Source of the DNA: Anaeramoeba flamelloides
Lineage: Eukaryota > Metamonada > Anaeramoebidae
Length of the DNA: 64,000 nucleotides
Assembly (NCBI GenBank): GCA_027625915.1
Contig: JANTQA010000015.1
Span: 3,997,001 to 4,061,000, forward strand
Direction: 5' to 3'
In this document: piece after piece, positions 25,977 to 63,194 of the stretch
How the letters are laid out: each line of letters begins with the position of its first letter
How positions within the stretch are numbered: the stretch's first letter is position 1
The notes under the pieces: generated by a model
The model's input: only the letters and a program-made list of their open reading frames with translations
What the model was told of the DNA's origin: nothing
Databases searched by the model: none
Made by a program: the position numbers and the translations under genes

Positions 25977-26906
25977 AATCTTTTGGTTTTTTCTGTTGAT
26001 GATTATTGGGCGAATCTTTAAAATTAAAAAAATATTTAGGTAGTTACATTAAGTATGTTCTAGTTAGGAATTTTTTGAGACTGGAATACTATTATTTTTT
26101 GTTTCTATTTTGAGATTTGGAAAAAGATATTGATAAAATCCTTCCGAAAATGATATTTTATAATTGTGATCATTAGTAAAAAATTTAAAATTTTATTATG
26201 TAATAATTTTTATTATTAGATTTTTTCAAGGTAAAGAAACTATTAGAACCATGTAACACGGAATATTTTTTACTACACAATTACAACATCTTTTAATTGC
26301 TCTAGAATAAAGGGTTGACGATATTCCTTAAGTACCTTAAAAAGTAATTTTTATATTAATTCGCTTCGTCTTTATTTAATTCCCAATATTATTTAAATTG
26401 TCTTAAAAAGAAAACAAAAATAATTCTTATATTCTCCTTTCCAAAGAATAAATGTTTTCTAATAAAAGAAGATATGTAACAAGTTTTGGAAAAGATTAGA
26501 TTTTTTTTTTTAGTTCCAAACTGAAAAAAGAATAAAAACCAAAGTCCAACTTGTAAAAAAAAAATAATTTTGAATTTACTACAATTGTCTACATTCTAAA
26601 AAGGCCAGTTCCAAATTTAAAAAATCTTAAAAAAATTTTAATAAAAAGAAAAAATTCCTACATCAAGTAAAAAGTCTGCAAAAAGAATGAAAAATATTTA
26701 ACAAATAAGGTACACCAAAAATTTGTCTCTGAGCAAAACCATTTTTTAATCGTCAAAAAAATTTTCATTTTTTTTTTAATTTCTTTTTTTTCCTTATTCT
26801 TCAAGTAATTACAAAAAATAAAAAAAAAAAGGTTTGATCAAAAAGAAAAGAAATCGAACTAATTTTTGGAAGGCTATTAAACTTTTTTAATCTACAAAAC
26901 AACAAA

Positions 26907-29900
26907 ATGGAACGGTTCCTCAAATTTCTAAAAATAAAACAAGACGATCAAACAAGGATTGATCTTCTTAAGGATATGTCTCAAATAATTTTAATCTCTG
27001 GCGAACAATTTGTCTCAAGCAGATACCTACGGGAATTTGTATTTGCTTTAGAAAGGATTATCAAGGAATCTACTACACCAGAAGTTACATCACTCTCTCT
27101 ACGTTGCCTTCAGAATTTGATTCAGTCAAAGTCCAGTTGCTCAAGGATTGTTTGTCAAGTCTCAAATACCATAATTTGCAAATTGGATCGCCGTGAATAT
27201 ATTGATGTGATCGAAGTTTCAATTAATCTTTTGGAATTGCTAACACATGATCACAACCAACAGTTGTTAAAAGAGGGCGCACTGAACAAGGCGCTCTCTA
27301 TTTTCAGCGATTGTCCGCAGAATTCACAACAAAAAATTGCCGAAATTGCTGCCAACATGCTCAGGTCCATCCCATATAGGTGCGTACAAATTGCCCAAAC
27401 TTCGATCCCAAGTCTTTTAAAACTCTTTAATAGCAAGAACCCAAGAGTATTGGACTTGTCGTCTTTAGCCTTAGTTCGGATCGTGAACAATCTACTGAAT
27501 TATTTAAAAATCCGTAAAAAGATCCCCAGCGTATTACAATCTGGAACGTTCTTTTCAACAATTATCAATTTGCTAAAACACAAAAAAAGAAAAGTGCTAA
27601 GCCCTTTTACCATCACTGGGTTAATTAAATTAATTGGCAATATAATTTCGGCTTCAAGAAGTTTTATAGTCAAAGTAGTTATTCAAGAAGGCTTGATCGA
27701 TTTATTGGCAGAGTTAATGGATTTGGATTCTGGAATCAACATTGATGCAAGGTGTTCATTAATGTTTGTTGTTGACTCCTTGTTGCCATCAATTCGGAAT
27801 AAATTCAAAAACAAACAAAATCTGGATCAAAAAAGGTATGGCTTGTACAGAAAGAAACAGTACCCATTGAACAAAGATTATCAGGTAATCAAGAGAAATA
27901 CTCCTCCTTCATCATTATTTTTTAAAAGAAAAACTTTAAAAGAAAAGATTCAGAACAAGAACGAAAGAATTAGTAATAATATTTCAAACAGTCTTCTTAA
28001 AAACAATTGGCGTCTTCACCATTCTCAGAGTACACTTCCTAATAGTAATAGTTCTCAAACTTTTAATGAAACAAATCCAAAAAATACAACTAACGGAGTT
28101 AATTATGTTAACCAAAGTAATAATATGTTCCAAGGCAATTTGAAAAGTTTTCCTTCTCCTCTTACTCCAATGATAAGAACTCCTAATTACTTTAATTTCA
28201 ATCCACGCAGCAATTTTTTTATGAATAGCTCGAGCCCAATGAATTTTTTTGATCCAAATATTTATACATTGACTAAAAATAAATTCAATTACAAACCTTC
28301 TCTTCAATTTAAAAATAACCCAAATAAATTTATGAATAATTATAGTCAGAATCCTTTTTTTCATAATAACAATGATAGTATAATTAATAATTATTATAAT
28401 AATGGCAATGGTAATGGTAATCTGAACACAAACAATACAACTTCCTCAAACATAAATATCAACAACACCAGTAACGGTGGTTTCAGCAGCTACGGCAACA
28501 GAACCGACGTAAAAAATAATAATAATTCTAATGAAAATCCGAATAATAGTAAAATTAATAATATTAATAGCAATTATATAAATGGCGGAATGAATCCTTT
28601 TGATAACCTGTATAATGATCAAAATAATTCCCAAAGTTTGAACAAAGATAAAAAAAACCCTTTTAATATAGATCCATTTGATTCAACAAATAAAATTAAA
28701 AGGCCTTCAAAAAAAAATTCAGAATTTAAAGAAATTCAAAATAAAAATAATGATTTAGAACTTGATTTATTTGATCCTCTATCATTTGAAGATTTTTCCA
28801 AAACCAAATTTGATTTAATTAATACAAAAAAGGAATTAACAAAAAAATCTAATCTAAGCAAAAAGGAATTTATTATTGATTATGAAAATTTTAATGATAA
28901 TGAAAATAATAATCACGGTTTAGGCTTTGATTTTGAAAATGAGCGTTTTCGTCTATTAGAATTCGAAAATTTACAAAGAAATATAAACGAAAATAAAAAA
29001 ATTTTTGAAAAAAATAAAATTCAAAATCAAGAAGAAACAAAAAAAGAATTTATACAAAGTAACAACAACAAGAAGATCTTCATGATAGAAGAGGAGGAGG
29101 AAGAAGAAGAACAGGAGTATGAGGGAGAGAAGGAGAAAGAACAAGAACAAAAACAAGAAAAGGAGAAGGAGAAGGAGAAAGATATACAAAAACAAGTACA
29201 ACAACAAATACAAAATGAAACTTATGATCAACAACAACCACAAAGAGTAGCAAAAAGGGACGAAACCAAAAAATATTTGGATCTTTATAAAAAAAAATAT
29301 ATTTTTCAAAAAATGCTAAGAGAAGGACGAAGAAATAAAAAACTTGGTTTATTTAAAAAAAAAAAGAAATTTGTACAAAATAGAAAAAGAATAAATTTAG
29401 AAAAAAAATTTGAAAACATTATTATTTATACCAAATTTCTGATTGAAGATTATGAAAAATCCAAGTTACCGGATTGGATTATTAGTGAACCAGGAAAAAA
29501 AGAATTCAAAAATCTAATTCAAAAATTATTTGCACTTGTTTTAAATTGGTTTAGAATTTCTATAAAAATTTCAATAAAAAAAAGGTGTTTATTCTTTATT
29601 TTAAAAATATTGACATTTTCTCAAGGAAATGAAATGATAAATTTTGTAGAAAATATTTTAATAAAAAATAATTTTATTGACTTTGTTTGCAATTTGCTTT
29701 TCGGTGAAAATATTGGATATATTAAAACGGGTTTACTAATCACTAAACTTTTATTAGACAAATACAATGAATGTTTTAAACAGTTATTAATTAAAGATGG
29801 CTTATTAGATCAATTAATTTTTTTATCTACTTATTTAACCAATTCAAAGAAATCATATACAGAACAAAGACATGATTTTTATGTTGATTTAAAAAACAAA

Positions 29901-32135
29901 CAATTACCAATCGAAAATGAGAAAATAAAAATAAATATATTTGATGATGATGAGAATGATATAAATAATGAAAACAACAACAACAATAATAACAACAATA
30001 GTGATGATAAGAAAATTGAATTAGAAGAAAATTTAAAAAAAATTACAAAATCAAAACCAATCCAATTAGAAAATCAAAAAAAAATTGTTAATAATAGTGA
30101 TTCAACTAATAACCAGATTAAACATAATCAATATAATAATTTTATGATAAAAAATCATTTGAATGATCTTATTGAAATGTCAAATAAATTAAAAAATAAG
30201 CATTTTGACACAATTGGAATTCCATTAATGAAATCAAATAATAATGACAATGATATTAATAAAACTAAAAATAAAAATAAAATTTACAATTTCAAAAAAA
30301 TATTAAATAATTTAGAAAGAAAAAATTCTTTACATAAATTAAAAAAATATTTATTAAAATATAAATATAGTATTTATGAAATTCAAAAGATAGATTTTAT
30401 TTCACATTTAATCAATTATTTGAAAACAATTGATAATTTAAAAAATTTTTATAATTATTTTTTTACTAATAAGAAAAACTCAAACAACATCAATAACAAT
30501 ATAGAAACGAATAAAAAACATGATGAGAATAAAATTTTTCTCAAAAAATTAATAAAAATACTATTTTCATATTTGGAAAGAATTGAAAATTTTGACATCA
30601 AAGATAAAAAAAAGATAATAAAAACAGATGATCCATTTAATTTTTTAAATATTGAAATGAAAGGAAATTTTTTGCAAACCACAGAAGAAAATACATTAAA
30701 AAAATATTTTTCTATATTGGTAACCTTGGATTATAAAATGTCTATGAATACCATTGAACGGATTGTTTGGAAAAAAGTCAAAAACAATAGAGAATCAACC
30801 TTGCCTGGAAATCAAAGAGACTTTTTAAAATCTTTTAAGTCTTGTAATTATAATTCAAATATGGAAGAATTCAGTGAAACGGTTAATGAAATCAATCAAA
30901 ATAAAATTGTCTATTCAAAAATTTTGAATAAAAAAGAAAATGATCATTCTCTAATTTTTTATTTAAATGATGAATTAATGAATTACCAATCAACCCCTAT
31001 TCAAGAAATTAAAAGAATTTTAAAGAAACAAAAAAACGATACGCAAAATTATAATAATTCATATGATAATAGCAGAAAAATTGAAATTTATTATGAAAGA
31101 ATTCGTAACAAACATTTTAATTTAAGTAAATTGAATAAAAATAATTATAATTTATATAAAAATAAATCTTATTTTTATAATAATACAAAGATCAAAAAAA
31201 AAGGGAATAGGAAAAGGAAAAGAAAAAAGGATATTGTTGATATATTGGAAAATCAAACAGATCTGTTTTTTCAAAAATTATTAAATTTGAATTCATTTGT
31301 TAATTTTAAATTTAAAAATTTACAAGATTTTAAAAACAATGAATTAATTAATATTTTCATTCTATTAAGAATAATTTTTTTAATGAATGATCAAAATAAT
31401 GATTACAATTATAATAATAATTTACATATACCATTGGAAAATTTTATTAATAAAAGATTGTCATCTATAATAAATCGGCAGTTGGATTCGAATAAGACAA
31501 TTTGTTGGGATTTATTACCAAATTGGATACATAAATTAATGTTAAGTGATTTTAAATTTTTGTTTGATTTCCAAACTAGGCTCAAATATTTTAAAAGAAC
31601 GGGCTTGGGGCTTGGGCGCACAGTTAAAGAGATGGAAAAACGTGTTGACAGGCATGTGGAAAGGCATAGGAATATAATTTCAACAAGATTGCCTCGATTT
31701 AAAGTTCGAATAAATCGAGAAGAAAATTTATTAAATCAAGCAATGCTAATAATGAAAATGCCGCAAATTAAGGAAAGTTCGATGTTAGAAGTTCAATATT
31801 ATAATGAAGTTGGTACAGGAAGCGGACCAACAAACGAATTTTTTACTTTGATTTCAAAGGAAATTTGTTCAAGAAAAAACGACAAAGCACAGATTTGGTA
31901 TGATACCTTTTCAGACGAAAACGATGTTTATGTTCGTGCGCCAAACGGGCTGTGGCCTTTGCCTTTAAATTCAAGTTTCAGCTACCACCAAAAAAAATAC
32001 ATTTTAATGATCTTTGAATTTATTGGTTCATTTGTTGCTAAAGCAATTTTAGATAAAAAAACAATTCAAATACCTTTTTGCTCAATTTTTTGGAAATATT
32101 TATTAAATGATGATCATAATGTTAATGCTGAACCA

Positions 32136-32174
<39 letters not shown>

Positions 32175-32990
32175 TTGGATGTTGGTAAAGAGGAGAAGGA
32201 GAATTATGATGATGATATTTTTGATAGCAAATTTACAGCTGAAAAATTAGATGACCTGAGATTAATTGTACCTAATTTTTATAAATTTTTAACAGAATGT
32301 AAATCAATAATTCAAGAAAAAAAAATTAATATTAAACATAAAATATATAAAAAAAATATTAAATATCATGGGATGGATCTTAAGGATTTATGTTTAAATT
32401 TTACTTTGCCAGGTTATCCTGATATCGAATTAATTAAAAATGGTAAAAATAAAATTGTAAATATTAATAACCTTGAAAAATATTTAAATTTAATTGTAGA
32501 TTGCTTCTTAAATTCGGGTATCAAGCAGCAATTAAATGCTTTCCAAAAGGGGTTCAATAAAATAATGCCAATAAAACATTTGAAATGCTTTTCACCCTTT
32601 GAAGTAAATAATTTAATAAACGGCGAAATGGAAAAATGGTCATTCGAATTATTATTAAATTCAATAATTTGTGATCATGGTTATAGCAAAGAAAGCGAAA
32701 TAGTAGCCTGGTTATTAAATGTTTTATCTAATTTCAATAATAAAGAAAAAAGTGATTTTTTAAAATTCTGTACAGGAACACCAAGATTACCCATAGGCGG
32801 AATCGCGAATTTAAATCCAAAATTGACTATTGTAAAAAGTGATCGATTCAACAATACAGATTCTAGATTGCCCACATGTATGACCTGTGTTAATTTCTTG
32901 AAAATTCCTCCTTATTCTTCAAAAAATATTTTGAAAGAAAAATTATTAATTGCAATTAACGAAGGCCAAGATAGTTTCCATCTTTCTTAA
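26907..32990 (+). CDS. HECT E3 ubiquitin ligase, TRIP12/UFD4-like
   Basis: HECT ligases accept ubiquitin on a cysteine and pass it to substrates. The single exon gives 2027 residues, starting at an ATG in CAAAATGG. Residues about 1-310 are helical ARM/HEAT-type repeats like the N-terminus of TRIP12, UFD4 and plant UPL3. Residues about 320-800 are Asn/Ser-rich, then Glu/Lys/Gln-rich low complexity. Poorly conserved helical sequence follows to about 1590, and the HECT domain covers about 1600-2027. Signatures are GTGSGPTNEFF, GLWPLP, FEFIGSFVAKAILD, TLPGYPDIEL, TGTPRLPIGG and LPTCMTCVNFLKIPPYSS. The catalytic cysteine is C1994 by family alignment. The C-terminus EGQDSFHLS is the classic end of this subfamily. 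A poly-Asn insert from AAT repeats (about 32137-32174) lies inside the HECT N-lobe. A 6-kb intronless gene contrasts with its multi-exon neighbours. Likely substrates are ubiquitin-fusion or N-degron proteins, by family only. Confidence 0.95.
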
Positions 32991-34119: not shown

Positions 34120-35420
34120 TAGTCTACGACAAAAAAAATTTCTCACAAACGTTATCAATACAAAATCATACATTATATGTTGAAAATTTTCAATTTGTAT
34201 TTTTAATTTTCAAAGTCGTATCATTTTCGAAACAAGTTTCAAATGTTGAATTCCCCACCATTTTCTAGGATTTTAGGAATGATTTTGTCAAGGTGTTTAA
34301 TCTGGGCTCTAATTTTTTTTGTGGAAATTTTTTTCCAATTTTTTTTTGATTGAATTTTTTCAGTTCTTCTTGGGTTTCGGCAGATTCTTCTTCGATCATG
34401 TTTTTTTAAATCATTCCATATCTTTTCAATTGGATTCAAATCGGGTGATTTGGTAGGGAAAGACACTAATTTAATTGAATTTTCTTTGAACCAATTCATT
34501 GAAAGTTTTGATTTCTGAATGGGTGCATTGTCCTGAAGAAATTCAAAATCATCGCAGTCATATTTATTTTTAATAAAAGGAAGTAATGCTTGTTCAAGTA
34601 TTCGAGTATAAATTTCTGAATTCATTAGTGATTTTGAATTTTTGCAAAAATCTTTTGAAAAAAAAAATTTCAGTTTTTTACTTCCAAGAAATTCCAGCCC
34701 AAATCATAACTGAAATTCTTTTATTATCTTTTTCTTTTGTGGGTCTTTTCTCGCCTTTCTTGATATAAACATAAGATGTATTTCGAAATAACTCTATTTT
34801 TGATTCATCGCCAAAATTCACCCTTTTCCAGTTCTAATTGTAGTGGAGTCTACAATGCATCTTTTTTTTCCTTATCTTTTTGCAAAAGTTTTGGAATTTT
34901 GATGGGTTAAACGCAATTATAATCATTATTTTTTCGATATCTTTGTATAGTTCTTATAGATAAAGATACATTGAGTTTTTTTTTGGTCTAAGGTTTCAAT
35001 TTTATTGAACTTTTCTCACGATTTTCATTGAATATTTCTTCCTTTTTTTGAGTTGTTCATTATTTAACAAACTTTTTAGACCACTAACTTCTTTCCATAT
35101 ATGTGATCCTAGAAGGGATTTTTTATCCCAGTTTCGAATAGTTTTTGTTGTAATATTATTATTTTTTGCTAGTTTTTTAATGGGTATACCTTCTTTCAAT
35201 TTTAACAGAATTTGGTATTTTGTTTCAAGTGAGGTTTTTTGTTTTTTGTTCATTTTATAAATAAATTTATTGTAAATAAAAGTCGAATATTGAATAAAAA
35301 AATAAAAAATTAAAAATGACAAATATCATAGTTTCAATTTTTCAAAAAAAAAATCATTGAAAATGACAGATCAAAAAAAATAATTGATGGTTTGAGGGAA
35401 ATTTTTTTTGTCGTAGACTA
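34120..35420 (-). mobile_element. Tc1-like DNA transposon (about 1.3 kb)
   Basis: Terminal inverted repeats of about 30 bp read TAGTCTACGACAAAAAAAAT from each end and continue T(C/T)(C/T)CACAAAC with small differences. TA dinucleotides flank both ends, as expected for Tc1/mariner. The length is typical of the superfamily. A transposase lies inside on the minus strand. The TIRs are nearly identical, so the insertion is not very old, yet the gene is out of frame. Confidence 0.92.
34239..35253 (-). pseudogene. Tc1 transposase, frame-disrupted
   Basis: Reading starts at the ATG at 35253. The N-terminal part (to about 35002) has a helix-turn-helix, IKKLAKNNNITTKTIRNW. The C-terminal part (34625 down to 34239) has the catalytic block LQDNAPIQKS and SPDLNPIEKIW. 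The second Asp and the Glu are separated by 34 residues, the DD34E spacing of Tc1. A middle segment carries VNFGDESKIELF with the first Asp, then an ISVMIWAGIS block. The N- and C-terminal parts are in different frames, so at least one frameshift separates them and the copy is presumably inactive. All three catalytic acids survive. The start is supported by its position just inside the TIR. Confidence 0.85.
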
Positions 35421-36690: not shown

Positions 36691-39600
36691 ATGTCTCAAA
36701 ATTTTAAAATTGGAACTGAAGTTTTTGTTTTTGGAGAACGGGGAATTGTAAAATTTATTGGTGATACAGAATTTTCACCAGGAACTTGGGTTGGAGTTGA
36801 ATATAATAAAAAAAGTAATTCAAAAACTTTGAAAAAACAAATAAAGAAAAATCTATTGATCCTTAAAAAACAATGAAATAATTTTTTTTTTTAACTTTAT
36901 TTAATTAATAGTTGGAAGGAATAATGGATCTGTTCAGGGTAAAGAATACTTCAAATGTGAACCCAAGCATGGTGTTTTTGTTCGTGCTTCACAAGTCTTT
37001 TTAGATAAACATGAATTCAAAGAAGATAATGATTTTTGTAAATTTTTTTTTCTTTTTTATTTCTTTTTTCTTTCTTTTGGATGGTTACAATTAAACAATT
37101 TAATTACAACTTTTTAACCATCACTATTTGTTCAAAAAAAGTTTTTCTTTACAAACACAGTTGAATTCAAAGTTCCCTTTGATCTCTATATTTCAAGACA
37201 ATCCTTTTTTTTTTTCAAAAAAAAAATAAATAAAAAAACAAAAAAAAAACAAAAAAAAAAAAATCTGAAATAAAATGATGGAAAACAAAAGAACGGTGAA
37301 ATTGTTTTTCCAAGATATTTATAAACAGATCTTATCCAACCAAAACTTTGAATTACAATTAACATTTTTTTTTTCCATTTGGACAATTTTTTTAACTTTA
37401 AAATCAAACACATTCTCATTCTTAATAAATAATTACTACAAAAAGTTAATGAAAACTCAACCGAGATGGAATCATTTCTTTCTCATAAGAGGCTAATTGA
37501 ATTTTTATATGAAGAGCATCAGTCGTTACAAAAAAGAGCCAAGCTGTTAAAAGACGGAAACAAATTAACAAAAAAAGAAAACAAAAAAAAAAAGGAACAA
37601 TACTTAAAAAAACAAAACCTTGCAGCCAAAAAAAAAAGAATCCAAGAATTAAAAGAAAAAATCAAAAAACAAAAAAGAATGGCCCAATTAAAAAAGCAAA
37701 TTCAAGGAGAATTACAAAAAAGAATTGGTGAACTCCAAAGAAGGGTAGGATTTAGAGATAACAAACATCACAAGAGGATTATTAAATTATTAAAAGAAAA
37801 TTCTGGGAATAATAGGAAAAAAACTGAAATTGAAAGAAATAAACACCAAAAAATGGAAGAAGAAAATATTGATCTTATGATTAAAATTAAAGTCGAAAGA
37901 GGAATTGTTGAAAATAAGTCAGGTAAGTTGTTTTTGTTATTAGATTAAATTTTTTCTTTTTTATTTTTTTGTCTTTTTTTGTTCTTCAAAAAATTAAAAA
38001 AAAAAGAAAACAAAAGAGGAATGGTTTTTGTTGAAAAAAACGAGAAAACTGTTGTTAACCACAAAAACTGAAAAAATCCTCTGATAAAAAATATTAAATT
38101 CACAGGAGAGTAATTGGGCTTTCTTGAGGAAGTGTCGAAGGGCAGTTCTTTATTTTATCCATAATAAGAAAATATGAGAAAATTTATCAGCAACTTTTTG
38201 AAATAACCATTTCGTCATAAAGCCGAGTCATTAAAAAAAAAATAGTATCACGATGAAATTTGTTTTCATTTTTGGAATTGTTTGATGAGTAAAATGAAAT
38301 TTTATGAATGATCATTTATTGAAAAAGTAATACGCTTTTAAAAAAAAATATTAAGTGATTAGTAACTCTTATTTCTTTTTTCTTTTCCTAAAAGGTAATG
38401 GAGTAATTGTTTGTCCAAGGATTCAATTAAACTTGATGAACAAACTTCATTTATCGACTTTAGAGAAATGAGTTATCATTTTTAAAAGAATTCATTTTTT
38501 TACAAATCAAATTTTCAGTAAAAAGATGTAATCCTTTTTGTTTGGATTTTTGGATCCAAAATTAGAAAAAGAAAAATTTGTAGAAAAGAATTTTATTTGA
38601 AAAAAATTCCCCTCCTAGTAATTTCTGATAGTTTGATAAGAACAAATAATATTGAAACTTTAATCTTAATTTAATAAAATACAAGAAAAACTAAATAAAT
38701 TTATTGAATGCTTGAAGATATTTGAAAAAATTGATCATTTATTTTCAATTCACAAATATTTATTAAATTTCTTGAAATTTAAAAGATTAGTGTAATATTC
38801 TTTTTCAAATATTCAGAATATATACAACAAACTGTTATTATTTAAATAAGTTACTTGAATAATAAATATCTATATTTTTTTTTCATTATTAGAATTATTA
38901 ATTTGAATTCTTTTTAATTTGTTGGAAAATCTTTAAAAAATTTGGGAAATAAAAATAAAGTATATTAATACTTTTTAATCTTTGAATTGATACGAATGCA
39001 ATGGAAATAATTAGGATTTTTATAAGAAATTGGATAAAAATAATCAAATTAAAAAGTATTTCTTTAGGTTTTAAGTTGATTTTTCTAGGTTTTGAAAAAA
39101 GTGTTTTGAGAGAATTTTTAATTTAACTGTTTGGTTTTTTTTCTCTTATTTTTTTTTTCAATAAAAAGAAAAAATTGATTTGAACTGTTCTTTTGAATCA
39201 AGAAATTAATATTTTTTACAAGTTTTGAATAATTATTGTAATTTTTTTGAAATTAAGTAGATTTTTTATATTGAATTATATAAAAACTTGGTGATTTTAT
39301 TTTTAAAAGTGTATTTTTGTATATTTCTCTTTTCAGAAGCTAATAAGAGTTTTTTCTCCTTCAACGAAAACATTTTTTAGACAATAAAATTTAGAAAATA
39401 TATTGGATTTTGAAATTTTCAAAAAATAAGAAAAAATGGGATCAAATTTTTTAAAAACAATAAGTCATTTTTGAAAAAATAGAATTTAAAAATAAGTTTG
39501 GAATTATAGAGTAAACAGATTTTTACTTCATTTTTCAATTTCAAGATACGGTAAAATTATCTTTGATTTTTCTATATAAATTTACTAGATTATTTTTTTT

Positions 39601-42600
39601 TTTGTTTTACTATTGCTTTAACTAACTTGAAAAATATATTATTAAATTTTAATTTTTTATTTTTTATTTTAATATTTTTTTTTGTTAAGAGAGAAATCAA
39701 AGATCTTATTATATTTGTTAGGTTTTTTTTTAAATTTTTAGAAATAAAAACAAAATTACTTTAGCTTTTCTAGATTTTCAGTTTTGATTAGAAAATCAAT
39801 ATATTTTGGGAATAAAGAGAAAACTTTGAAACTTGATAGTACTTGAATGTAATCGATTTCACTTCCCTGATTACGAATGGTAAATTAGTAATTTTGATAA
39901 GTAAGAAAAAATCGAGTTATTTTTGAACTTGGAAATTTCCAAGTTTTTTATTGGTTAAAAAAAGAAAAAGCAAAAAAAAAATTCAAAACAAAAAAAATTA
40001 ATAAAAACAGTTTATTCTGAGACGCTATGAATAATAATTACTATTCAAATCAATTTATTAGTAAACCATAAATATTTAAAAAAAAATTATTACTTTGTTA
40101 AAATTCAAATTTTTATTACATTCTTTTATAACATTTACTTTATCAACACATCTTCTTTTTTCTATAGTAAAATTACGTAGGATACTAAATAAGCAAGCAG
40201 AAGAAGTATTGCAAATTGAAGAACAAACAAAAAGATTATTAAAGCAATATGGGGAATCCGAATCTGTTTCATATCAAAGTATCACAGAGCGAAAGGAAAA
40301 ACTTCATGAACACCAACAGCGATTTAAACAATTAAGAAAGACGATTTCTGAAACAAAGGTTAACAAATCGAAAAAGGAAATTGAAATGCAAAAAAGTAAT
40401 ATAACTATTTTTTTATTTAAAATTTTTATATTTGATCGTCTTTATTAAAACTAAAATATAATTACTTAATTTTAAACAAATTCTTAAACTTTTCTCGATT
40501 TCACTTTATTCCAATCAACATTCATATCTTTTTCTCTATTAAAATAGTTTTATTACCTGAAGATCAAATTGATCGAAATAAATGGAAAGAAAGAATTTTT
40601 TCTATCCGACGAGAATTTCTTGAAATGTATGAAAGGATAAACCCTCATAAGCGTATAATTAATTTTGCAAGATTATATAGCCCTGGAAAAAATTATATTA
40701 CCTTATCCTTGAAAAAACAAGACATCAATCGATTAATTCTTCAATATTTTTATATGGAAGGGAGACCTGATATTGTCAATTATATTGAAGAGAATACTTC
40801 ATATCAATGTAAATATTCTTTTTATTTATTTATATTTATATTAATTTTAAGTTTTCTATAAAGCTAATTTTTGTAATTCTTCTTGGTAGAGATCCTTAAC
40901 GAAAAAGAGTCTTATATTTTTTTTTTATATATTTTAGTTTATCAAATTAAAAAGTTAAGAAAATGATTTGTGATAAAAGTATATTTTTGTTTTTCTTTAA
41001 AAAAACCCATTTCACTTTTTTCATTATTTCGGCAATTTATATGATTTTTGTGAACAAGTTTAAATCAGATTATAAATTATTTATTTCATTTAATTTCTCC
41101 AAAATCAATACAATCTATAAAAACTATTAATTTTTTAAAAATTCAAAAAAAATATTTTATTTTTTTTTTTGTAATTGAATTGATATATTTCTGAACACTG
41201 TAGAAATAAGTAATTATAACCAAAATGATCAAAGTTAAAACACATATCATTTAGAGTTTAATTAAATTTTTCTTTAATTATAAATGCAATTGATTTTAAT
41301 GAAAGTGTTTTGAAAAGATTCCTTAAGGACTATCTTTCTTTTATGTTCTGTGAAAACTGAAATCCAATATTGTAAATAGAAATAATAGTTTCCAAAACTA
41401 CCTGTTAAAGTAAAGTCAAAAAAATTATTACAAATTTTAGGTTTTTTTTAGGAATTTTGATGAAAATTAAAAGAAAACTTTTTTTGATCAAAAATTTTTC
41501 TAATTTCTCGAACAAAAACAAGATAAATTTAAAAAGTAATTTTTTTTACCATAATACAAACTTCATTTACTTTCTACTTTATCTTCAAGTATATTTATAC
41601 CATTTCCCTCAAATCTAGAATATTTTGAAACTTAAGCGGAAAGTAAGAGTAGTAAGAGGATTTTAAGTTTGGAAATCTTTTCAAAGTTATAAATTTGGAA
41701 TTTGGATTATCTGAAAATAATTTTCCCCAAAATGATCAATATTTTTAAAAAAAAACCGAAAATTTTAAACATAAAAAGATCTCTTGAATCAACATTCTCG
41801 ATAAATCAATAAATGTGTTTTTAGGAATAACAGTTCTATCCGCTGAACATAAAATACAGATAGACACTAATAATAAAAAATACTAAAATTTAAAAATTTT
41901 GTCATATATTTACAAATTTTTTTCATGTAATTTGTAGGAATATTATTCAACGTGAAAATAATTTCAGTACAATTAAAAAATAATTACAAACAAGAAAGAT
42001 TTCATACAAGTAATAACAAATTACTCTTCAAAGTTTATTTATTTTTTTTTTTTGATTTATTTAATAAACTAAAATTCAAAATTTTCCACACAGCTAAAAC
42101 GTTCCAAACAATCACAATAATACAATTTCATTGAAATTGGAGATAATTTTGATTTTTGTGAAATATGAAAATCATTTTTTCATCTTTTAGTTTTTCTTTT
42201 CATTTCATTGTTTGAATTATGTAATTTGTTTCGTTGGATCAAAATTTTTTTGAACAATTGATATTATGTTAAAGTCAAGTTGTTCCAAATAGAAGAACTC
42301 AAATAAAATTAGTTGGTAGTATCTAACCTTTGATCGATCAATATTCCTAATAGAATTTAAACAAATTTACCAATGTATTTTTTTGTTTTGCTCTCTCCAA
42401 AATTTTTAACACACCCATGATTTATTTGTATTGATAATTATTTATATATTGTTTTGTGAGTATTGTAATTTATAAACAAGTGTTAACATTTCAATTAGTG
42501 AATGGTTCTAATTTGGTAAATCTTCTTGAATTGATTAAATAAGTTTTTTTCTTCACAAATTGAATTTTGGTGTGTTAAAAATTTTGAATTGGGGTTTATA

Positions 42601-44934
42601 CTGATAAAAATAAACTTGATTTGAAAAGGGGGAAATATTTTGAGAGATTTTAAAATTTACAAAATACCAAAATTATTCAATTTTTACAGGTTGCTTAAAA
42701 ACAACATTACTTGATTTAAAAATGAAAATATCAAAAATCACTTTAAATCGAAATTTTATCTATGATTTTTATTTCAAAAATCAAGAAATAAATCGAATCA
42801 TATTTAAATTTTTAAAAGGAATAGAGATTTATTTAATTCCCTTTATGGAATATTTCTAAATTTTCTTTATCATAATAATTTCTTTTCAACTTTACAGTAT
42901 TTTTTATATTGACAATACAACAAACTTTCATTTTATGCAAATATTTCAATCAACATATTTTGAAATAAATACTTTAGTAATTGATTCAATTAGTATTAAT
43001 CTTTCACTTTAATTGAGTATTGTCAATTAATGAATAGCTCCACTAACAAAGATGATTTTTTCTGAAATATAAAAAAAAATCCCCACTTTTTCGGAAATAC
43101 CTTATATATTACAAATAGCTATTACATAAGGAATTATTATAATTTTATAAATAAACAATAACACCATTTAGAATCTTTAATTCTCATTTTTTGAATAAAT
43201 AAATCATAACATATTAAAAAAAAAATTTTTTTTTCCATTTAACTATTTATAGTTGATAATCCACAATTGTCAGATAACAGGTTGCTAAGCTTATTATCAA
43301 TTGGATTTAACGATATTGATTCCTTAATGGATCTTTCATTAAGCCCAATAAAAAGAGAGTTAATAGCACTTCAAAAACAAGAAACCTCAAAAGAAAATCA
43401 AAAAGAAAAAGAAAGTGACAAAGAAAAAAATAAAGAAGAAGAAATTGAAAAAGAAAAAGAAAAAGAAAAGGAAAAGGAAATTGAAATCGAAAAGGAAAAT
43501 GAAGAAAAAGAAGAAAAAGAAGAAAAAGAAGAAAAAGAAGAATTAGATGAGGAATCAAAACTACAGATAAAAGAAAGAATTGAAACGTTCTCAGATTTGG
43601 CGGGAGAGATAGGGCTTCGATTTCATATTAAAAATGATGTCAATATTTGGAAGGAATTGCCTGATGGGCACACAAACATTAGGTATAAAGAAGAAAAGGA
43701 TTTAGGAGAAAATTCCAAGAAATTGGAATTAATAGATCGGCTTGATTGTGCAAATTTCAATAAGCTTGTAGAAAAATTAACAGATCAAAAGGCCAGTCAT
43801 CCAAATTTTTCAAATGCATTTTTTATGACTTATCCATCTTTTATCAAAGGAGAACATTTATTAGAAAAATTAATTCAAAGATACCATGTGCCAAAATTTC
43901 GAGACGAAGATGAAAATTTAGCAAATGTAAGAAAGCAAAAAATCCAATTAAAAGTGATCACTGCGCTAAGTAAATGGGTAAAATCAGCCAAGACGCTAGA
44001 TCCGATGATCATATGCGATATCGAGGTTTTTGTTGAAAAGGTTTTATTAAGGGACCATGAAAGGCCAGCCCAGCAATTGCAGGCAAATATCGAGAAATTG
44101 AAAAATGGTTCAAATGTTGAGACAACTGTAACATTTAGCGAACCGCCACCAAAGCCAAGAATACCGAAGCAGTTATTTAGTCAACAAAAATTCAATTTGT
44201 CGCATTTGGACGAAATCGAATTTGCAAGGCAATTAACGATCTACCAATTCAATACCTTTAAAAAAATTGAGCCTTCAGAATTGTTAACGCAGGCCTGGAG
44301 TAAAGAAAAGCAAAAGCATCGCGCGCCAAACGTATTGGCATTGATTCGCAAATTTGACCAATATAATGCCTATATAAAAACTCAGATCATCATGCCGGAA
44401 TCGGCAAGGGCGCGGACAAAGCAAATACAACGATTCTTGAAAATTTCAGAGCATTTACGTTCTTTAAACAACTTTGATATGCTATTAGCTAACGTTACTG
44501 CGCTAAACGCCAAAATCGTTTCGAGATTAAAATTCTCGATTAACGAAGTGCCAAGACATTTTTGGAAATCATTTGAAGAATTCGAAAAGTTGCTCGACCA
44601 TAACGAATCCTATAAAAATTATCGTAAAATTTTAACAGAAACCCCTCATCCAATATTGCCCTATCTTGGAATGTATTTGACTGATATTACCTTTATATCG
44701 GAGGCCTCTTTGGATAATATAGATGGCTTGGTCAACTTTGCTAAAAGGAAAATGCTCTTTAGAACAATAGAAAAAATTATCGAGTTTCAAAGATCCAGTT
44801 ATAATTTAGTTCCAATCGTTCAAGTTCAAGGTATGCTGGACACAGATTTATCAGGCAAAAAGGATATGGAATTAATGAAAGTTAGTTTCAAAAGAGAGCC
44901 AAGAAATTGCAAAAAAGCTGATTTAAAATGGTAG
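36691..44934 (+). CDS. CAP-Gly / coiled-coil / LisH / RasGEF fusion, six exons
   Basis: This is a predicted exchange factor for a Ras-type GTPase with microtubule-binding parts. Exons are 36691-36814, 36912-37037, 37446-37922, 40168-40395, 40548-40808 and 43253-44934. All introns are GT-AG and every junction is in phase, giving 965 residues. Domains: CAP-Gly at about 5-75, split by intron 1 (GTWVGVEYNKK then IGRNNGSVQG, PKHGVFVRASQV); Lys/Glu coiled coil at about 90-320; LisH at about 377-404 (INRLILQYFYMEGRPDIVNY); a Glu/Lys run; RasGEF_N at about 564-680 (NAFFMTYPSF); RasGEF at about 725-960, with EFARQLTIYQFNTFKKIEPS, NALIRKF-like VLALIRKF and PILPYLGMYLTDITFISE. The catalytic domain looks complete. 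Introns 3 (2245 bp) and 5 (2444 bp) hold repeats. Intron 2 (408 bp) could hide another small exon. The domain calls are secure; that all six exons form one transcript is strongly supported by phase. Confidence 0.88.
38590..39600 (+). repeat. Repeat family C, direct copy 2 (RasGEF intron 3)
   Basis: It aligns along about 1 kb with 21810-22800. Shared blocks are TAGTAATTTCTGATAG, TTGAATGCTTGAAGAT, AGAAAAAATTGATTTGAACT and TTGAATAATTATTGTAATTT. It fills nearly half of the intron. Confidence 0.65.
41300..41520 (+). repeat. Repeat family H, copy 1 (RasGEF intron 5)
   Basis: Ordered matches to about 61490-61690 include TTTTATGTTCTGTGAAAACT, GAAATCCAATATTGTAAATA, AAAGTCAAA and ATTTTAGGTTTTT. No terminal repeats were recognised. 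Confidence 0.5.
42065..42600 (-). mobile_element. MITE family A copy, inverted (RasGEF intron 5)
   Basis: This is the reverse complement of the 23961-24496 element, from TAAACTAAAATTCAAAATTT to the far end ATTTTGAATTGGGGTTTA. Both TIRs are well kept and the interior TTTGATCGATCAATATTCCT block is present. It is the best-preserved copy, so probably the youngest of the four. Confidence 0.82.
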
Positions 44935-46068: not shown

Positions 46069-47260
46069 CTTTTTTTTTTTTTTATATAGATGAGGAAGTG
46101 TAAAATTACACTATCGGTGTACTTTTACTTACATCCCCTTTCAGGAATTTAAACGTAAAATCATAGATTCTACGATTATTAATTAATGAAAATAATTTTA
46201 AGCTGTCTTGACTTAAAATTATTTCATTAAAATGTAATTCTTTTAATTTATTTTGAAATATCAATCTATCTTTTGTATAGGAAGAACATACCTCATAAAA
46301 AGTGATCAATGTATTCTATTATCTCTTTATGTTCATATTTTAAACATAAAGGACAAAATTTATTTGAGTTTTTATTCATTACATAGTAATATCATTTTAA
46401 GCAGTTAGTCAATGTTCTGAATTTTCGAATTGTTGAGCTTGATGGATAACTTAAATATCTTTGATTAATAAATAATTTTTTTTGGTTTTTAATTATTACG
46501 AAATATTTTTGTACCTTCCAACTGGTAGAATTCAACAACTCATTATAATTATAAATTTCTTTTTTAAGAAGGTTTAAACTCTCCGACTTCCAGTTAATTT
46601 TATTGTTAATTCTTTGATTAACTTTTATTAGTTTATCCAGATAGGGTAGAGATAATTTTTTCATTTATTTTTGAGAAATTTTGAATTTCTTTTTATTAAT
46701 TGATATTACCAAATTTTCGAATTTAAATTCTATTTTAGAGATAAGAACTGGCGTATTTCTGTTTATTTTGCATATTTCGGTAATACAGGTATTAATCCAT
46801 GAATTTAAATAATTTATCTTTGCAATTTTATAATTATATATTTCTAAACCATACGTCAATTGACTTAATATAAACGATTTAAATAATCTAATTTTTAAAT
46901 TATTTGTTAATAAATTGTTATTAAATAATTGTTTAGAATTGTTATAAGTTTCTTTTGCCTTTTTCAGATTATATATTAAATGTGAAATTTTTTCTAAAAA
47001 AATTCCCAAATATTTAATCTTAGATAAATCTTGTAATATATCTGTTTTGTCTTTATTAGGTTTTAACCCAAATTGAATAATTATTTGATTTTTTAATATT
47101 AATTTTCTATTTATTTGATTTATATTTCCTGTTATAATTAAAATTAAATCATCTGCAAACATTTGACAAAGATTAGTTAATGTTATTATTTTTAATAAAA
47201 GAAAGTGTGAAATAATGGCAAATATTATAGAAAAATGTTTCTCTTTATTGTTAAAAGAAT
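46069..47260 (-). mobile_element. 5'-truncated LINE (non-LTR retrotransposon) relic
   Basis: On the minus strand the fragment reads from the reverse-transcriptase active site to a 3' tail. MFADDLILI is the (F/Y)xDD box, followed by KTDILQDLSKIKYLGI and a thumb-like LSQLTYGLEIYN stretch. A C-terminal region has a CPLC...H cysteine cluster (FCPLCLKYEHKE) of the kind found at the ends of non-LTR ORF2 proteins. Downstream of the last stop, within about 25 bp, is a run of about 14-15 A, the expected LINE tail. The frame carries one in-frame stop after FKISQK and changes of frame near the cysteine cluster, so it is dead. The palm domain upstream of FADD, the endonuclease and any ORF1 are missing, as in typical 5' truncation. 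Confidence 0.82.
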
Positions 47261-47759
47261 AAAATCAGATATTCTTTATCCTGGAAAATTTGAAAATTGG
47301 TATTCTTTTAAAAATAACCTAACTTTTACAAGTTTAGATTATTTATCAACAAAAGTATATTTCTTGATAGATTCTGTTAATTTTGATATTTAATATTAAA
47401 TATAAAAAAAAAAAAATTTTTTCTAAAAAAGTAAATTAGTTATAGAAAATAATAATTAATTTACATGATACATTACCCTTTATAAACTTTATTAATTTCT
47501 GATCTAATAAATTGTAAAAAAAAATCAAAAATTGAAAAAAAAATTCTGATATTTATAACTATTTGGATCAAAGAAAAAAAATAAAAAAAAAAAACAAACG
47601 TTACTCCAACCAAATTTGAAAAAAAACTCGATAAAGGTATAAGAATAATTTTAAAAAAAATCAATAGAAAATCTTATTGATTTTAACAAAAATAGATCAA
47701 GTATAGTTGGTTGCATCTAACTATTTTTTAAAATTGTTGAACCACTAGGTAATGTAATT

Positions 47760-48844: not shown

Positions 48845-51800
48845 TTATTTTTTAATTTCATCGTTTGAATTGATATTGGATGTATTCGAGTCACTGGATG
48901 AACTGGTTGAGCTGGATGTACTTGTAGAGATAGATAGGAGTTCGTTAATGAATTTTTTATTTTTAGACTTTTGCTCTGTATATTTATTTTCGGTATTATC
49001 TTCTGCTAATAAACCTTGTTTTTGATTTTCTACCAAATATTCCTGATTAATTTGATTTTGGTTTTGTTTATTCGCGTTTTCACGCTTTTCTTTGAGATAA
49101 TTTTTGTATTCTGTTCTCAGCCTTGGCTTGTTTTTGACACATTCTTTTAAATATTCAATTTCGTTTTCTGTTGGGTGCTGTGAATAACTAAAATGTTTTG
49201 GAGGTATTTTTGTAAAAAATACTTCTTTCCAATTACCTAAACAACCTAAATCATATGGATTTTTCGTATCCAAAATTCCTTTCATGTATTCTCTTGTTGT
49301 CATATTTTTTGAAATTAATTTTATGTGAAAGACAAATAAGCTTCTTACTAGCAATAATGAAACCACAGAGATAAATGCTATCAAGATTGAATGTATTGCA
49401 CCTTTAAAAGATTCATCAATGGTTTCGTTATCAGTTTTGGTATATTTAAATTGATAAACTATATCAATAGCAGAGCAAGTTAAGAGGTATAAGCATGTTA
49501 TAACAACAGTTAATAAATAACTAAAAAAAAATCGATAATTTCTTAATCCAATGTCAGAGCCAACCTTTTGAGAAGGTATGAATATGATAAACAAGGGTAG
49601 ACAAAAATAAAACACAGATTAAGAATAAAATTTTAAATGAAAAAATTTGAAATAAAAATAAGATAGTTTTTTAAAAAAAGTTACAAACCCATGGACCTAT
49701 AATAATAATAATATAAATATATATATAGAGAGAGATATATAAATATATAAATAAAAAAAATGATTTAATTATATTGATCATTAATTTGAGTTTTAGATAT
49801 TTATCATAAATAAATAAATTTTAATTATTATTTCAAATTCTTTTTAGTTCTATTTTCTTGACAATTATATTATAATATCCTCGTTATAATTCTATTAAAA
49901 AATTTTGTTTTTTTAACTTTAATTAGTTACAAAACACTAGTATGAGAAAATAAAATTAAAAATTACAAGTTAGACAAAACTATTACTTCAATTTCCATTG
50001 CATCCTATGTTAATAAAGTTTATTCAAAACATAACCAAAATTCCAAAACTTAATTCATGAGGCTGTTGTGTTTATTGGTGTTAATAGTACTACGATTTTT
50101 AAAAGTCTCTAGTCAAAGAAAAAAAGGTCTATTTTGGAGGAGAAAATTTTAAATGGATGTTACAATGAATTTTAGTTAAATTCTACTTTATGATATTTTT
50201 TTGAATAGATAATAACTAATAGTTTTGAAAATACTCTACTCATCTAAAAAAACTTAATTAAGGAAAAAAAATAACTGATGATAAATATTCCGTTTCCTAG
50301 TGTTTTTTTTTACTTTTTGGAATAAACCGAAAATTTATTAAATTTTCTGTTTATTGCAAAAATTAAAAAAAAACCTAACGAAAGTTTCCGTCAAGTGCCG
50401 TAGGGTGCCTAGGTTTTCCAGAATTCAAAAGAATTGAGAAAAATCTTTGATTTTACTCTATTCTTTTAAATTCTGGATAACCTAACGAAAAGTGTCCTAG
50501 GTTTTTTTTACTGTTTGAAATAAACCTAACGGAAAATCAAAAAAAAAATATTTTTTTCAATTTAAATAAACAAATAATTCTATATTAGTCCAAATAATTG
50601 ATTACAATTTGAAAGAGGTCCATTGGATTTAAAATACTTTTAAAATATAATAAAATGACCTTTTAACGAGAAGCAAAAAAATTTTTAAATTTTTTTACTA
50701 TTAAATTGAAAAAAAATCTTAATAGAACCTGTACAATTGAATTTTCTAAATTAAATTATAAAATATCGATGAAAATATTTTTTGATCAAAGATCTTTTTA
50801 TTAATCAATATTGTTTATTATAATTGGAGTTATTAAAAACAAGGGTAAAATTCGCAAATATTTAATTTTTTTTTGAAAAAATTTTTTCATGATCGTGTAG
50901 TATTGTTGGAGTAAAAAATATTTAATATTAGTTTTTTAAAAAATCGGGAAATTTTTTTATGAATAATTTCATGACGCTTTTCACTCTTCAAAGGGCGTTG
51001 TATATGAATTAATTGGTTTTTTAAATGATAAATTATCCCCTAAACATGCATTTAATTCTGTAAAGGCTTGCCTGATTAGTACAATATTTGAAGTATCTTC
51101 TTGTATTTTTTAGTATTGACAAATAAACTTTTTTCTTCAAGTTAGCATGATCAAAGATGAACTCATCTAAGAAAATTACTTCTCTCTACTTCTTTACTGC
51201 CCAATAGTAATACAATGTTTTGAATTGTTTTCTTTTTTTAACTGTGATTTCTTTTTAAGTTAGTTTCTTGTATCATCGTGGGGTAGGTTAGATCCAAAGA
51301 AATTCACTTAGATCTAAAAATTTACTTCAAGATAAAGAACTTTCAACCTGTCTGTTTTGGAGAATGCGGTAATCTCAATAAAAGGATCTTTACATCACTA
51401 CAATGAAAATTTAAACACCAAAAATTAAAGTTAGCCAAAAGTATACATTGGATTTCAGTTATACTTCTTTTATAAATTATTTTTTCAAAGTTATCATAAT
51501 TTTATGTAATAAAAAAAGGATAGCTTTTAAACTCATGAAAATCCGAATACCCCCCTTTTCAAAAATACCGACTTTTGAAAAAAACACATATTTTTGGGGT
51601 ATTTTTTTAATGAAAAAAGTTGAAATGGATTAATTTTTGATTGAAAATTAAGAGTGGAAAAAGAATAAATGTTAAAACAATTTGCAGAAAGCAATCAGGG
51701 AATGTATATAAAAACTCAAACATGGAAAAAAATAAAATGATAAAAAATATTCCAAAAACAGAAAACAAATCAGTTTTTCAATTTAATTTAGCGATTTTAT

Positions 51801-61700: not shown

Positions 61701-62929
61701 TGGCTCAAATACCTCTAAAAAATTTCCATTTGTAAAAAAGTAAAAACAAATTGCTTTAATTAATGGGCTATCACCAGACATTTGTCATAAAAGTAAAGTA
61801 GATCATAATTGAAAGTAAATTAGATCAGTGCTCTATTGACAACCTGTTTCCGAAAATTCGTTTGTAAAAAAGTATAAAGCCGGTCTGACACAATCTAAAG
61901 AAAAAGATACATCCCGCAGTAAAAAAATTAAAGAATTTCATAAAATAAACACAATTTCTGAAGATTTTTGCAATAACAATGCAGATTTCTAATCTTCCGT
62001 CTTCTTGCAAAAATAGCAATTACCCTTTTTTTAATTTAAGAAACCAATTGTTTTTTTTTTTTTTTATTTTACCGACTTTATTAAATTTCGAATACAAACA
62101 ATTTTAATACTTATTACAAAAATCAATTGATTACTCTTTCAAATTATTCAACATTTTTTATTGTATTTATATAATTATGATTATTTTTATTTTTATTTTT
62201 TTTTCAAACTTTCTAAAAAAATAAAAAGCTACATTGATATAAAGAGTTTACCAAGCTATATCTATGAAAATTTTGGCCAAAGTGATGAAAAAGTAAAATA
62301 TATTTGCCATATTCCATTTCAAGGCCATTTCCTATTTACCGACGAAAAGTCCATTGTATACACCACTAACAAACATTGGGCATCTTTTGAAGTAGAAAAC
62401 GCACAAATGAATGACCTTAAAGCGAATGATGAATTAAAATCCAAAGTCCATTATTATCATGCAAAATTACGGAAATCTAATTTAAAAAATTATCAAAGCC
62501 TATTATATAAAAATATTTTTAATGGAGTTGATTTAGAATTTATAACTGGGCCAAATAATATGGTCAAATCTTCATTTTATTTACAAAGGGGAAGTGATAT
62601 TGATTTAATCAAATTAAATTATGAATTTGATAATGATTTAACAATGTCAATTGAAGAGGATGGCACCCTATTATTTTTAACGAACACCACACAAGAGCCA
62701 CTCTTAAGAGAATCAAAACCAATTTTTTTTCAAAATGGAAAAGAATTAAACGGTGAATATCAATTAGATCAAGAAAAATTTCAAATCACCTTTCGCATTA
62801 CTGATCCAAATTTTGATCCAAACAAACAACTTATAATAGACCCAAATTATTCTACTTATATCGCAGGATCGGGTGAAGATGTAAGCCGATATGGAAACAC
62901 AGATTCAAACCATTGTGGAATAATTGGAG
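58778..62929 (+). CDS. Secreted SBBP / beta-propeller-type protein, 5' part (runs off window)
   Basis: Exon 1 (58778-58932) starts at an ATG and encodes a signal peptide: NKS then the hydrophobic VLFIALILFLFITS, ending near residue 20. Exon 2 (62229-62929) joins in phase across a 3296-bp intron to read PNLPLYIDIKSLPSYIYENF. The roughly 280 visible residues match the long N-terminal domain that precedes SBBP repeats. Signatures are FLFTDEKSIVY, a YHAKLRKS/YQSLLYKNIFNGVDL block, a SFYLQRGSDIDLIKLNYEFD block, EEDGTLLFLTN and LIIDPNYSTYIAGSGEDV, the usual lead-in to the first propeller repeat. Exon 2 ends at a GTAAAT donor after GIIGG, so more exons lie past 64000. The role is probably extracellular or surface binding. 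This architecture is best known from bacteria, so distant lateral origin is possible, but spliceosomal introns and A+T-rich codons show it is settled in this genome. Confidence 0.8.
60125..60655 (+). repeat. Repeat family G, copy 2 (SBBP-gene intron 1)
   Basis: This is the partner of 24655-25205, with shared AAAAGATAAAATCTAATTAC, AATAATCTCAAAAAGTAAAT and TTAATGAAAATGAGTACC. It ends where a family B MITE begins at 60655, while the other copy continues without a MITE. Confidence 0.65.
60655..60826. mobile_element. MITE family B, best-preserved copy (about 172 bp)
   Basis: The left arm TACTGGTATTTCGATTATAA plus ATGGGAAAAAAATGTCACTT is answered inverted on the right by AAGTGAAATTTTTTTCCCAT plus TTAAAAGTCAAATACT. 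TIRs are about 40 bp. No coding capacity. Confidence 0.75.
61490..61690 (+). repeat. Repeat family H, copy 2 (SBBP-gene intron 1)
   Basis: This is the partner of 41300-41520: TTTTATGCTTTGTGAGAACT, GAAATTCAATGTTCAAAATA, GAAAGTCAAATTTTAGG. It is diverged. Confidence 0.5.
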
Positions 62930-63194
62930 GTAAATAATTTTCATCTATATTTGTATGTCTTTATATATTGATACATTTGATACACCCATAATTTTAGATG
63001 TTGTCTCATTTGAAAATAAAAAATAATTGCAATGTGAGTTTAAATTAAACTTATAATAAAAAAAAAAATCAATTTATTTCTCAAATATACTGAAAACTTA
63101 CTGAAAAAATAAAATAATTTTTCGGTTTGTTTGCTATTGGAGAAAAAAAAACTCGAAAAAAAAAAAAATTGAAAATAATTTGATTTTAATTTTA

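Follow-up and report, generated by a model that had tools for sequence, protein, structure and literature searches.

Does a single protein of the protist Anaeramoeba flamelloides join a CAP-Gly domain to a Ras exchange factor, or have two neighboring genes been read as one, and if the protein is real, what would it do? The question is raised by a locus at positions 36691-44934 (+ strand) of a 64,000-nucleotide window, by which we mean the whole stretch of DNA analyzed here (positions 3,997,001 to 4,061,000 of contig JANTQA010000015.1, assembly GCA_027625915.1). Exchange factors differ in the domains that place or switch them, and a CAP-Gly domain ahead of a RasGEF domain would couple microtubules directly to Ras. 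We find that the locus belongs to a real, large protein family, with about fifty relatives of the same domain order in this one genome, and is not an error of the gene model. Our preferred reading, to which we assign a probability of roughly 0.6, is that the product is a dimeric, microtubule-associated, SOS-type Ras exchange factor whose exchange activity would be governed by the state of the microtubules.

Six exons encode one protein

The gene splices from six exons into a single frame of 965 codons with a stop at 44934; all five introns are bounded by GT-AG and lie in phase 1, and every junction is in frame. Splice-aware alignment of the 965-residue protein to the window returns identical exons, which is a check of the tool rather than independent evidence. 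Exon 1 (36691..36814, + strand, as are all features of this gene) carries the start codon and the first part of the CAP-Gly domain, and exon 2 (36912..37037) carries its second part, including a GRNNG motif (as placed by the gene model, Pfam, and a PDB match). Exon 3 (37446..37922) encodes a basic, fast-evolving helical stretch, as judged from helix prediction, lysine and arginine counts, and substitution rates, and exon 4 (40168..40395) a further helical segment. Exon 5 (40548..40808) is a conserved module, recognized in a 20-row family alignment, with a LisH-like motif at its end, and exon 6 (43253..44934) contains an acidic, K/E-type linker, both domains of the exchange factor, and the stop codon (gene model and Pfam).

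Three domains score far above their Pfam cut-offs: CAP_GLY (residues 15-70, split by intron 1; 36733..36997; E = 1e-22, 80.3 bits versus a cut-off of 26.5), RasGEF_N (residues 570-650; 43744..43986; E = 4.5e-17, 62.6 versus 28.3 bits), and the CDC25-type RasGEF catalytic domain (residues 728-904; 44218..44748; E = 1.4e-49, 168.8 versus 23.1 bits). The original prediction, that six in-phase exons form one frame and unite CAP-Gly, RasGEF_N, and RasGEF domains in one protein, is confirmed on both counts. Read directly from the DNA, as are the gene structure and the family and selection described below, the domain order is CAP-Gly–basic helix–LisH-like–RasGEF_N–RasGEF.

The domain order recurs across the genome

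Two of the introns are long (~2.2 and ~2.4 kb) and lie between the parts of the protein, as they might if the gene model had fused two neighbors, a CAP-Gly gene and a LisH-RasGEF gene. The genome of the window (254 Mb), searched in six frames, allows this alternative to be weighed. CAP-Gly matches at E values up to 0.01 number 111 (104 over the Pfam cut-off and 7 below) and merge into 67 loci, and RasGEF matches merge into at least 173 loci (candidates scored: 150 of 304 in one search, 93 of 425 in another). At 50 of the 67 CAP-Gly loci, one of the listed RasGEF loci lies downstream on the same strand at a distance of 3.4 to 15.4 kb; the 50 RasGEF partners are all distinct, and a module of the exon-4/5 type stands in between at 42 of them. 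By comparison, 1,000 circular shifts of the RasGEF positions yield a mean of 0.64 linked loci and a maximum of 10. Any other arrangement with a RasGEF within 25 kb is found at a single CAP-Gly locus of the 67, itself also linked. One of the linked loci (C24:12972787) depends solely on a CAP-Gly match below the cut-off. Of the remaining 17 CAP-Gly loci, for which no RasGEF is listed, 7 carry the exon-4/5 module downstream and 10 show neither. Four of these seven were aligned: all four have a RasGEF_N domain, and two (C57u and C61u, the latter very divergent) have the catalytic domain, the models of the other two being unusable in the catalytic region. The CAP-Gly–RasGEF order is a common RasGEF architecture of this genome (50 of at least 173 RasGEF loci) and not a single oddity.

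Comparison of paralogues bears on the same alternative. We modeled 15 paralogue loci by splice-aware alignment, which is unreliable in fast-evolving stretches and introduces some spurious small exons; the seven closest models are poor between the CAP-Gly domain and exon 4, as well as around the linker. Among these seven, the lengths of exon 1 (124 bp), exon 4 (228 bp), and exon 5 (261 bp) are each conserved in six. Ratios of nonsynonymous to synonymous divergence (dN/dS), calculated for four pairs of paralogues (C48/C33, C70/C64, C70/C24, and C64/C24, rather than for the window gene itself), are 0.12 to 0.26 for the CAP-Gly domain, 0.36 to 0.54 for exon 3 (which is modeled differently in C48 and C33, making the value of 0.41 for that pair unsure), 0.04 to 0.27 for exon 4, 0.02 to 0.14 for exon 5, 0.02 to 0.16 for RasGEF_N, and 0.02 to 0.06 for RasGEF. 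Segment 406-440 of C48/C33 was dropped as a modeling error (dN 0.92, dS 2.43). These ratios indicate that all domains are kept by selection.

A point in favor of two separate genes is that, in each of the four pairs, the CAP-Gly end has a lower synonymous divergence than the RasGEF domain (dS of 0.124/0.365, 0.268/0.537, 0.393/0.635, and 0.456/1.043, a ratio of 0.34 to 0.62), such that the two ends do not share a common rate of divergence. The difference could stem from the shortness of the segments, from gene conversion, or from exchange of the 5′ end. Set against this are the linkage at 50 of 67 loci, the conserved exon lengths, and the in-frame junctions. Since the order recurs at so many loci and every domain is under purifying selection, the two-gene case is very unlikely, to the point that we consider it scarcely credible, and the fused architecture that had been proposed for this locus is borne out.

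How the fusion arose can be addressed in part from the RasGEF domains. A tree was built from 14 domains linked to CAP-Gly and 8 that are not (the latter being the eight best RasGEF matches), and one branch separates the two sets with support of 100/98. The tree is unrooted, leaves 7 of its 19 inner branches open, contains several long-branch rows, and omits two of the 15 paralogue models (C20u and C13u, which extend past the DNA read); it fits a single fusion but does not demonstrate one. A RasGEF close to that of the window gene (C1:9783255, 43% identity) has no CAP-Gly match within 25 kb, and CAP-Gly-free close relatives of this sort make loss of the CAP-Gly domain, or missed exons, possible.

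The C-terminal half resembles SOS

The best PDB matches to the C-terminal half are SOS2 and SOS1 (E = 1.1e-35 to ~1e-34), and they span both RasGEF_N and the catalytic domain. In Pfam, the RasGEF match covers positions 1-180 of 181, and the “RL...E” stretch, which we take to be the catalytic hairpin, is retained in the alignment with SOS2 and SOS1. From these likenesses we infer exchange activity: the C-terminal half would work as an exchange factor of the SOS type, acting on a Ras-family GTPase. Ras-superfamily matches in the genome number at least 151 (from 1,782 first-look candidates).

Large families often include inactive members, and the hairpin of the distant paralogue C61u differs (RLKATWGQ), so the RasGEF part might instead be catalytically dead and act as a Ras-binding scaffold. 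The catalytic-domain dN/dS of 0.02 to 0.06 in all four paralogue pairs, the extent of the Pfam match, and the alignment with SOS2 all speak against a dead domain, and we regard this alternative as improbable.

A LisH-like motif at the profile level

Exon 5 had been predicted to contain a LisH dimerization motif, which we place at residues 373-405 (40709..40807) on the strength of profile-profile comparison (hhalign). The motif is not visible to Pfam: no LisH match appears in the 965-residue protein at E values up to 1, nor in exon 5 at E values up to 10. The related family LisH_TPL is matched in 3 of 20 family members, its best E value (0.014) being comparable to those of an unrelated DUF6837 (0.016) and a cytochrome family (0.02), and LisH itself is matched in one of three distant members at E = 0.025, no better than the unrelated families listed alongside. 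Searched as a profile against the PDB, exon 5 matched two unrelated chains (best E = 0.12) and no LisH structure.

For the profile-profile comparison, LisH was represented by 9 of the 10 LisH matches found in the same genome and exon 5 by an 18-row profile (exon 5 and 17 relatives), to which six distant members had been added, three of them partly for their LisH-like look. This profile matches the LisH rows with a probability of 96.4 over 36 columns, and the match stands at 95.6 when the added distant members are left aside (20-row alignment of close relatives). Because four of the nine LisH rows are marginal Pfam matches upstream of RasGEF loci, the comparison was rerun with the five best rows only; the match was weaker but still held (92.6 and 88.2). 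The exon-4 helix, used as a negative control, gives probabilities of 0.1 and 0.04 against LisH. A single-sequence structural model of exon 5 shows two helices at the motif, with low confidence (mean predicted local distance difference test [pLDDT] of 57.6). The predicted LisH thus survives as homology between profiles and not as a recognizable Pfam domain; in this member its presence is likely, though in degenerate form. What is known of the LisH family suggests a dimer, which would be the role of the module here.

Elsewhere in the genome, four LisH matches (C26:4844982, C9:8152104, C26:4356256, and C48:7351416) precede RasGEF loci on the same strand at distances of 6 to 9 kb and make up a second LisH-RasGEF group, in which no CAP-Gly was found. 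An exon-5-like match at C30:3796503-3796811 has 10 internal stop codons and is either a decayed copy or intron read-through.

The helical stretch is basic

Between the CAP-Gly domain and the LisH-like motif, a long coiled coil had been expected. The helical part of this expectation holds: a single-sequence model predicts exon 3 as two long helices with a mean pLDDT of 86.4. The heptad repeat of a coiled coil is largely wanting, however, in that exon 4 gives the sole signal among six stretches tested (p = 0.022, uncorrected) and residues 87-320 overall give p = 0.59. Exon 3 contains 47 lysines and arginines versus 22 aspartates and glutamates among its 156 residues, and “basic helix” describes the stretch better than “long coiled coil.” The segment immediately after the CAP-Gly domain (residues 72-160) has a net charge of +10; its charge is positive in five of the seven close paralogues and negative in the other two (C48 and C33).

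Over a longer span, residues 72-242 carry a net charge of +21, and the acidic linker (residues 441-560) carries −17, such that basic and acidic stretches flank the LisH module. Such an arrangement could allow masking and thereby admits a particular version of our preferred reading, modeled on GEF-H1: the factor would be sequestered in an inactive state on microtubules and become active toward Ras after depolymerization, the reverse of what local activation at plus ends would entail. GEF-H1 is reportedly released upon microtubule destabilization. It is, though, a Rho factor of another class, and the charge of the acidic linker is inconstant across the seven close paralogues (−16, −14, −6, −7, −3, +3, and 0). 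The evidence does not separate sequestration from local activation, and we hold the former to be rather doubtful; being one form of the best explanation, its odds overlap with those of that explanation, as do those of the alternative ligand considered next.

What the CAP-Gly domain might bind

The nearest solved CAP-Gly domain in the PDB is that of CLIP-170 (Restin; E = 1.5e-18). CAP-Gly domains are marked by a glycine-rich motif known as GKNDG, the form it takes in CLIP-170; the window protein has GRNNG, with two substitutions, and subfamilies differ among GRNNG, GRNDG, GVHDG, and GENNG. Two papers (PMC3303835 and PMC10404244) describe CAP-Gly domains as readers of an EEY/F C terminus, and binding by CLIP-170 requires the terminal tyrosine and is abolished once it is removed. 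Among the 20 tubulin matches in the genome, 7 have tails that could be followed as far as a stop codon; alpha and beta types were assigned by eye. The three canonical alpha-tubulins found (C75:1552310, C75:1670340, and C29:5795052; L063-L065) have tails of EEDEEI, EEDEEI, and EEDEDI; all end in isoleucine, and an EEY/F end occurs on none of the three. The textbook ligand is thus missing from the canonical alpha-tubulins found. Had the protein activated Ras at microtubule plus ends or through dynein/kinesin adaptors, as was first suggested, such an end would have been expected, and on these three tubulins that expectation fails.

The other tails are varied. A divergent alpha-like tubulin (C34) ends in FEN, a divergent beta-like tubulin (C26) in QKQF, and a beta-tubulin (C61) in FFTL. 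Another divergent beta-like tubulin (C9:2172746-2173054; L071) ends in SEEYSEEYSEEY; its last letters are EEY, and the motif usually bound by CAP-Gly domains occurs in it three times. Three beta-tubulin tails (L074, L078, and L083) are very long and consist mostly of glutamate together with tyrosine, aspartate, and glycine, two of the three extending past the DNA read. A CH-domain query finds one locus for an EB1-type protein in the genome (E = 3e-20), and the genome search returned no match to the Pfam EB1 C-terminal family.

These observations raise the possibility that the fused protein is real but that its CAP-Gly domain no longer serves the usual alpha-tubulin tail and has been repurposed for something else. 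Candidates are the EEY-ended beta-like tubulin, a protein of the EB type, or a further protein with an acidic C terminus, and Ras signaling would be tied to a special structure and not to microtubules at large. The missing aromatic residue on the canonical alpha-tubulins found, the presence of both the EEY-ended tubulin and the EB1-type protein, and the variation of the GKNDG-type motif between subfamilies are all consistent with repurposing. The domain is otherwise canonical, however, and under purifying selection; acidic tails with a different large hydrophobic residue at the end may yet be bound; and the C-terminal exon of the EB-type locus could not be firmly assigned. We view repurposing as somewhat unlikely, and docking of the CAP-Gly domain on microtubules, as judged by its sequence, as plausible.

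A bolder proposal is that some fifty RasGEFs are wired to microtubules through CAP-Gly domains that read the tubulin isotype and not the tyrosination of alpha-tubulin. The isotype would be the EEY-ended variant tubulin or the isoleucine-ended alpha tail, and distinct microtubule populations would switch on distinct Ras GTPases. This idea is speculative, and we think it unlikely.

A probable microtubule-associated exchange factor

Our preferred reading, that of a dimeric, microtubule-associated SOS-type factor, combines these parts as follows. The N-terminal CAP-Gly domain and the basic helical stretch would dock the protein on microtubules or on a microtubule-associated ligand; formation of a dimer or oligomer would fall to the LisH-like module, possibly aided by the helix; and the C-terminal RasGEF_N and RasGEF domains would exchange nucleotide on a Ras-family GTPase. 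Ras exchange might thereby be placed, held, or released by the state of the microtubules, an effect of docking on exchange that we infer from the arrangement of the domains. Several of the results above count against this assembly, namely, the unequal synonymous divergence of the two ends, the lack of a Pfam LisH match in this protein, the little heptad signal over residues 87-320, the negative charge after the CAP-Gly domain in two close paralogues, and the isoleucine ends (with no EEY/F) of the canonical alpha-tubulins found.

Neighborhood of the gene

Fragments resembling mobile elements lie on either side of the gene: a DDE_3 transposase fragment (34242-34703, − strand; E = 2.2e-12) and, on the other side, a reverse transcriptase fragment that falls below the Pfam cut-off (46668-47264, − strand). 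Farther away, the window contains an uninterrupted frame of 2,050 amino acids with a C-terminal HECT ubiquitin ligase domain (26838-32990, + strand; E = 2.8e-76), a Vps26-family match (16840-17307, + strand; E = 6.4e-14), a DHHC palmitoyltransferase match (48848-49618, − strand; E = 7.7e-16), and a DUF7948 domain (62131-62934, + strand; E = 3.9e-26).

Comparison with known systems

The order of CAP-Gly, LisH, and RasGEF had been put forward as unfamiliar among characterized proteins, in keeping with which none of the papers listed by our searches of 5.39 million open-access articles concerns, by its title or the opening of its abstract, a CAP-Gly domain joined to a RasGEF domain, subscription papers and eukaryote protein databases being outside the scope of the search; an unremarked database entry for such a protein may exist. 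The same literature yielded no paper that treats Anaeramoeba and RasGEF together, and neither RasGEF nor CAP-Gly occurs in the accessible main text of an Anaeramoeba paper (PMC11550330). Contigs of IMG/VR and GTDB contain no relatives of the RasGEF part, but these collections are not built for eukaryote genomes, and the null result therefore says nothing about other protists. What we could not find described is the combination of placing domains on a RasGEF, which this genome holds some fifty times over; the joining of LisH to RasGEF is already known.

Among known proteins, GEF-H1 (ARHGEF2) offers a functional analogy only, as an exchange factor reportedly controlled by microtubules; it belongs to the DH-PH class of Rho factors and shares no homology with the window protein. 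CLIP-170 and dynactin p150Glued resemble the N-terminal half, in which a CAP-Gly domain is likewise followed by a helical stretch, and have the nearest solved CAP-Gly domains; to our knowledge, neither has a RasGEF domain. Their ligands end in EEY/F (PMC3303835 and PMC10404244), in contrast to the canonical alpha-tubulins found here. SOS1 and SOS2 share the RasGEF_N and CDC25-type catalytic domains but differ in what precedes them: SOS has DH and PH domains (PMC1273635), which were not found in the window protein, where CAP-Gly and LisH-like parts occur instead. A further parallel is with Dictyostelium, in which a LisH adjoining a RasGEF has been described and 5 of 25 RasGEFs have LisH as their sole further domain (PMC1273635, whose main text does not contain the term CAP-Gly). 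As in A. flamelloides, LisH, RasGEF_N, and RasGEF there come together in a protist with an expanded set of RasGEFs, although the LisH of the window protein is recognizable at the profile level. Dictyostelium has 25 RasGEF genes in total (same source), versus 50 RasGEF loci linked to CAP-Gly in this genome.

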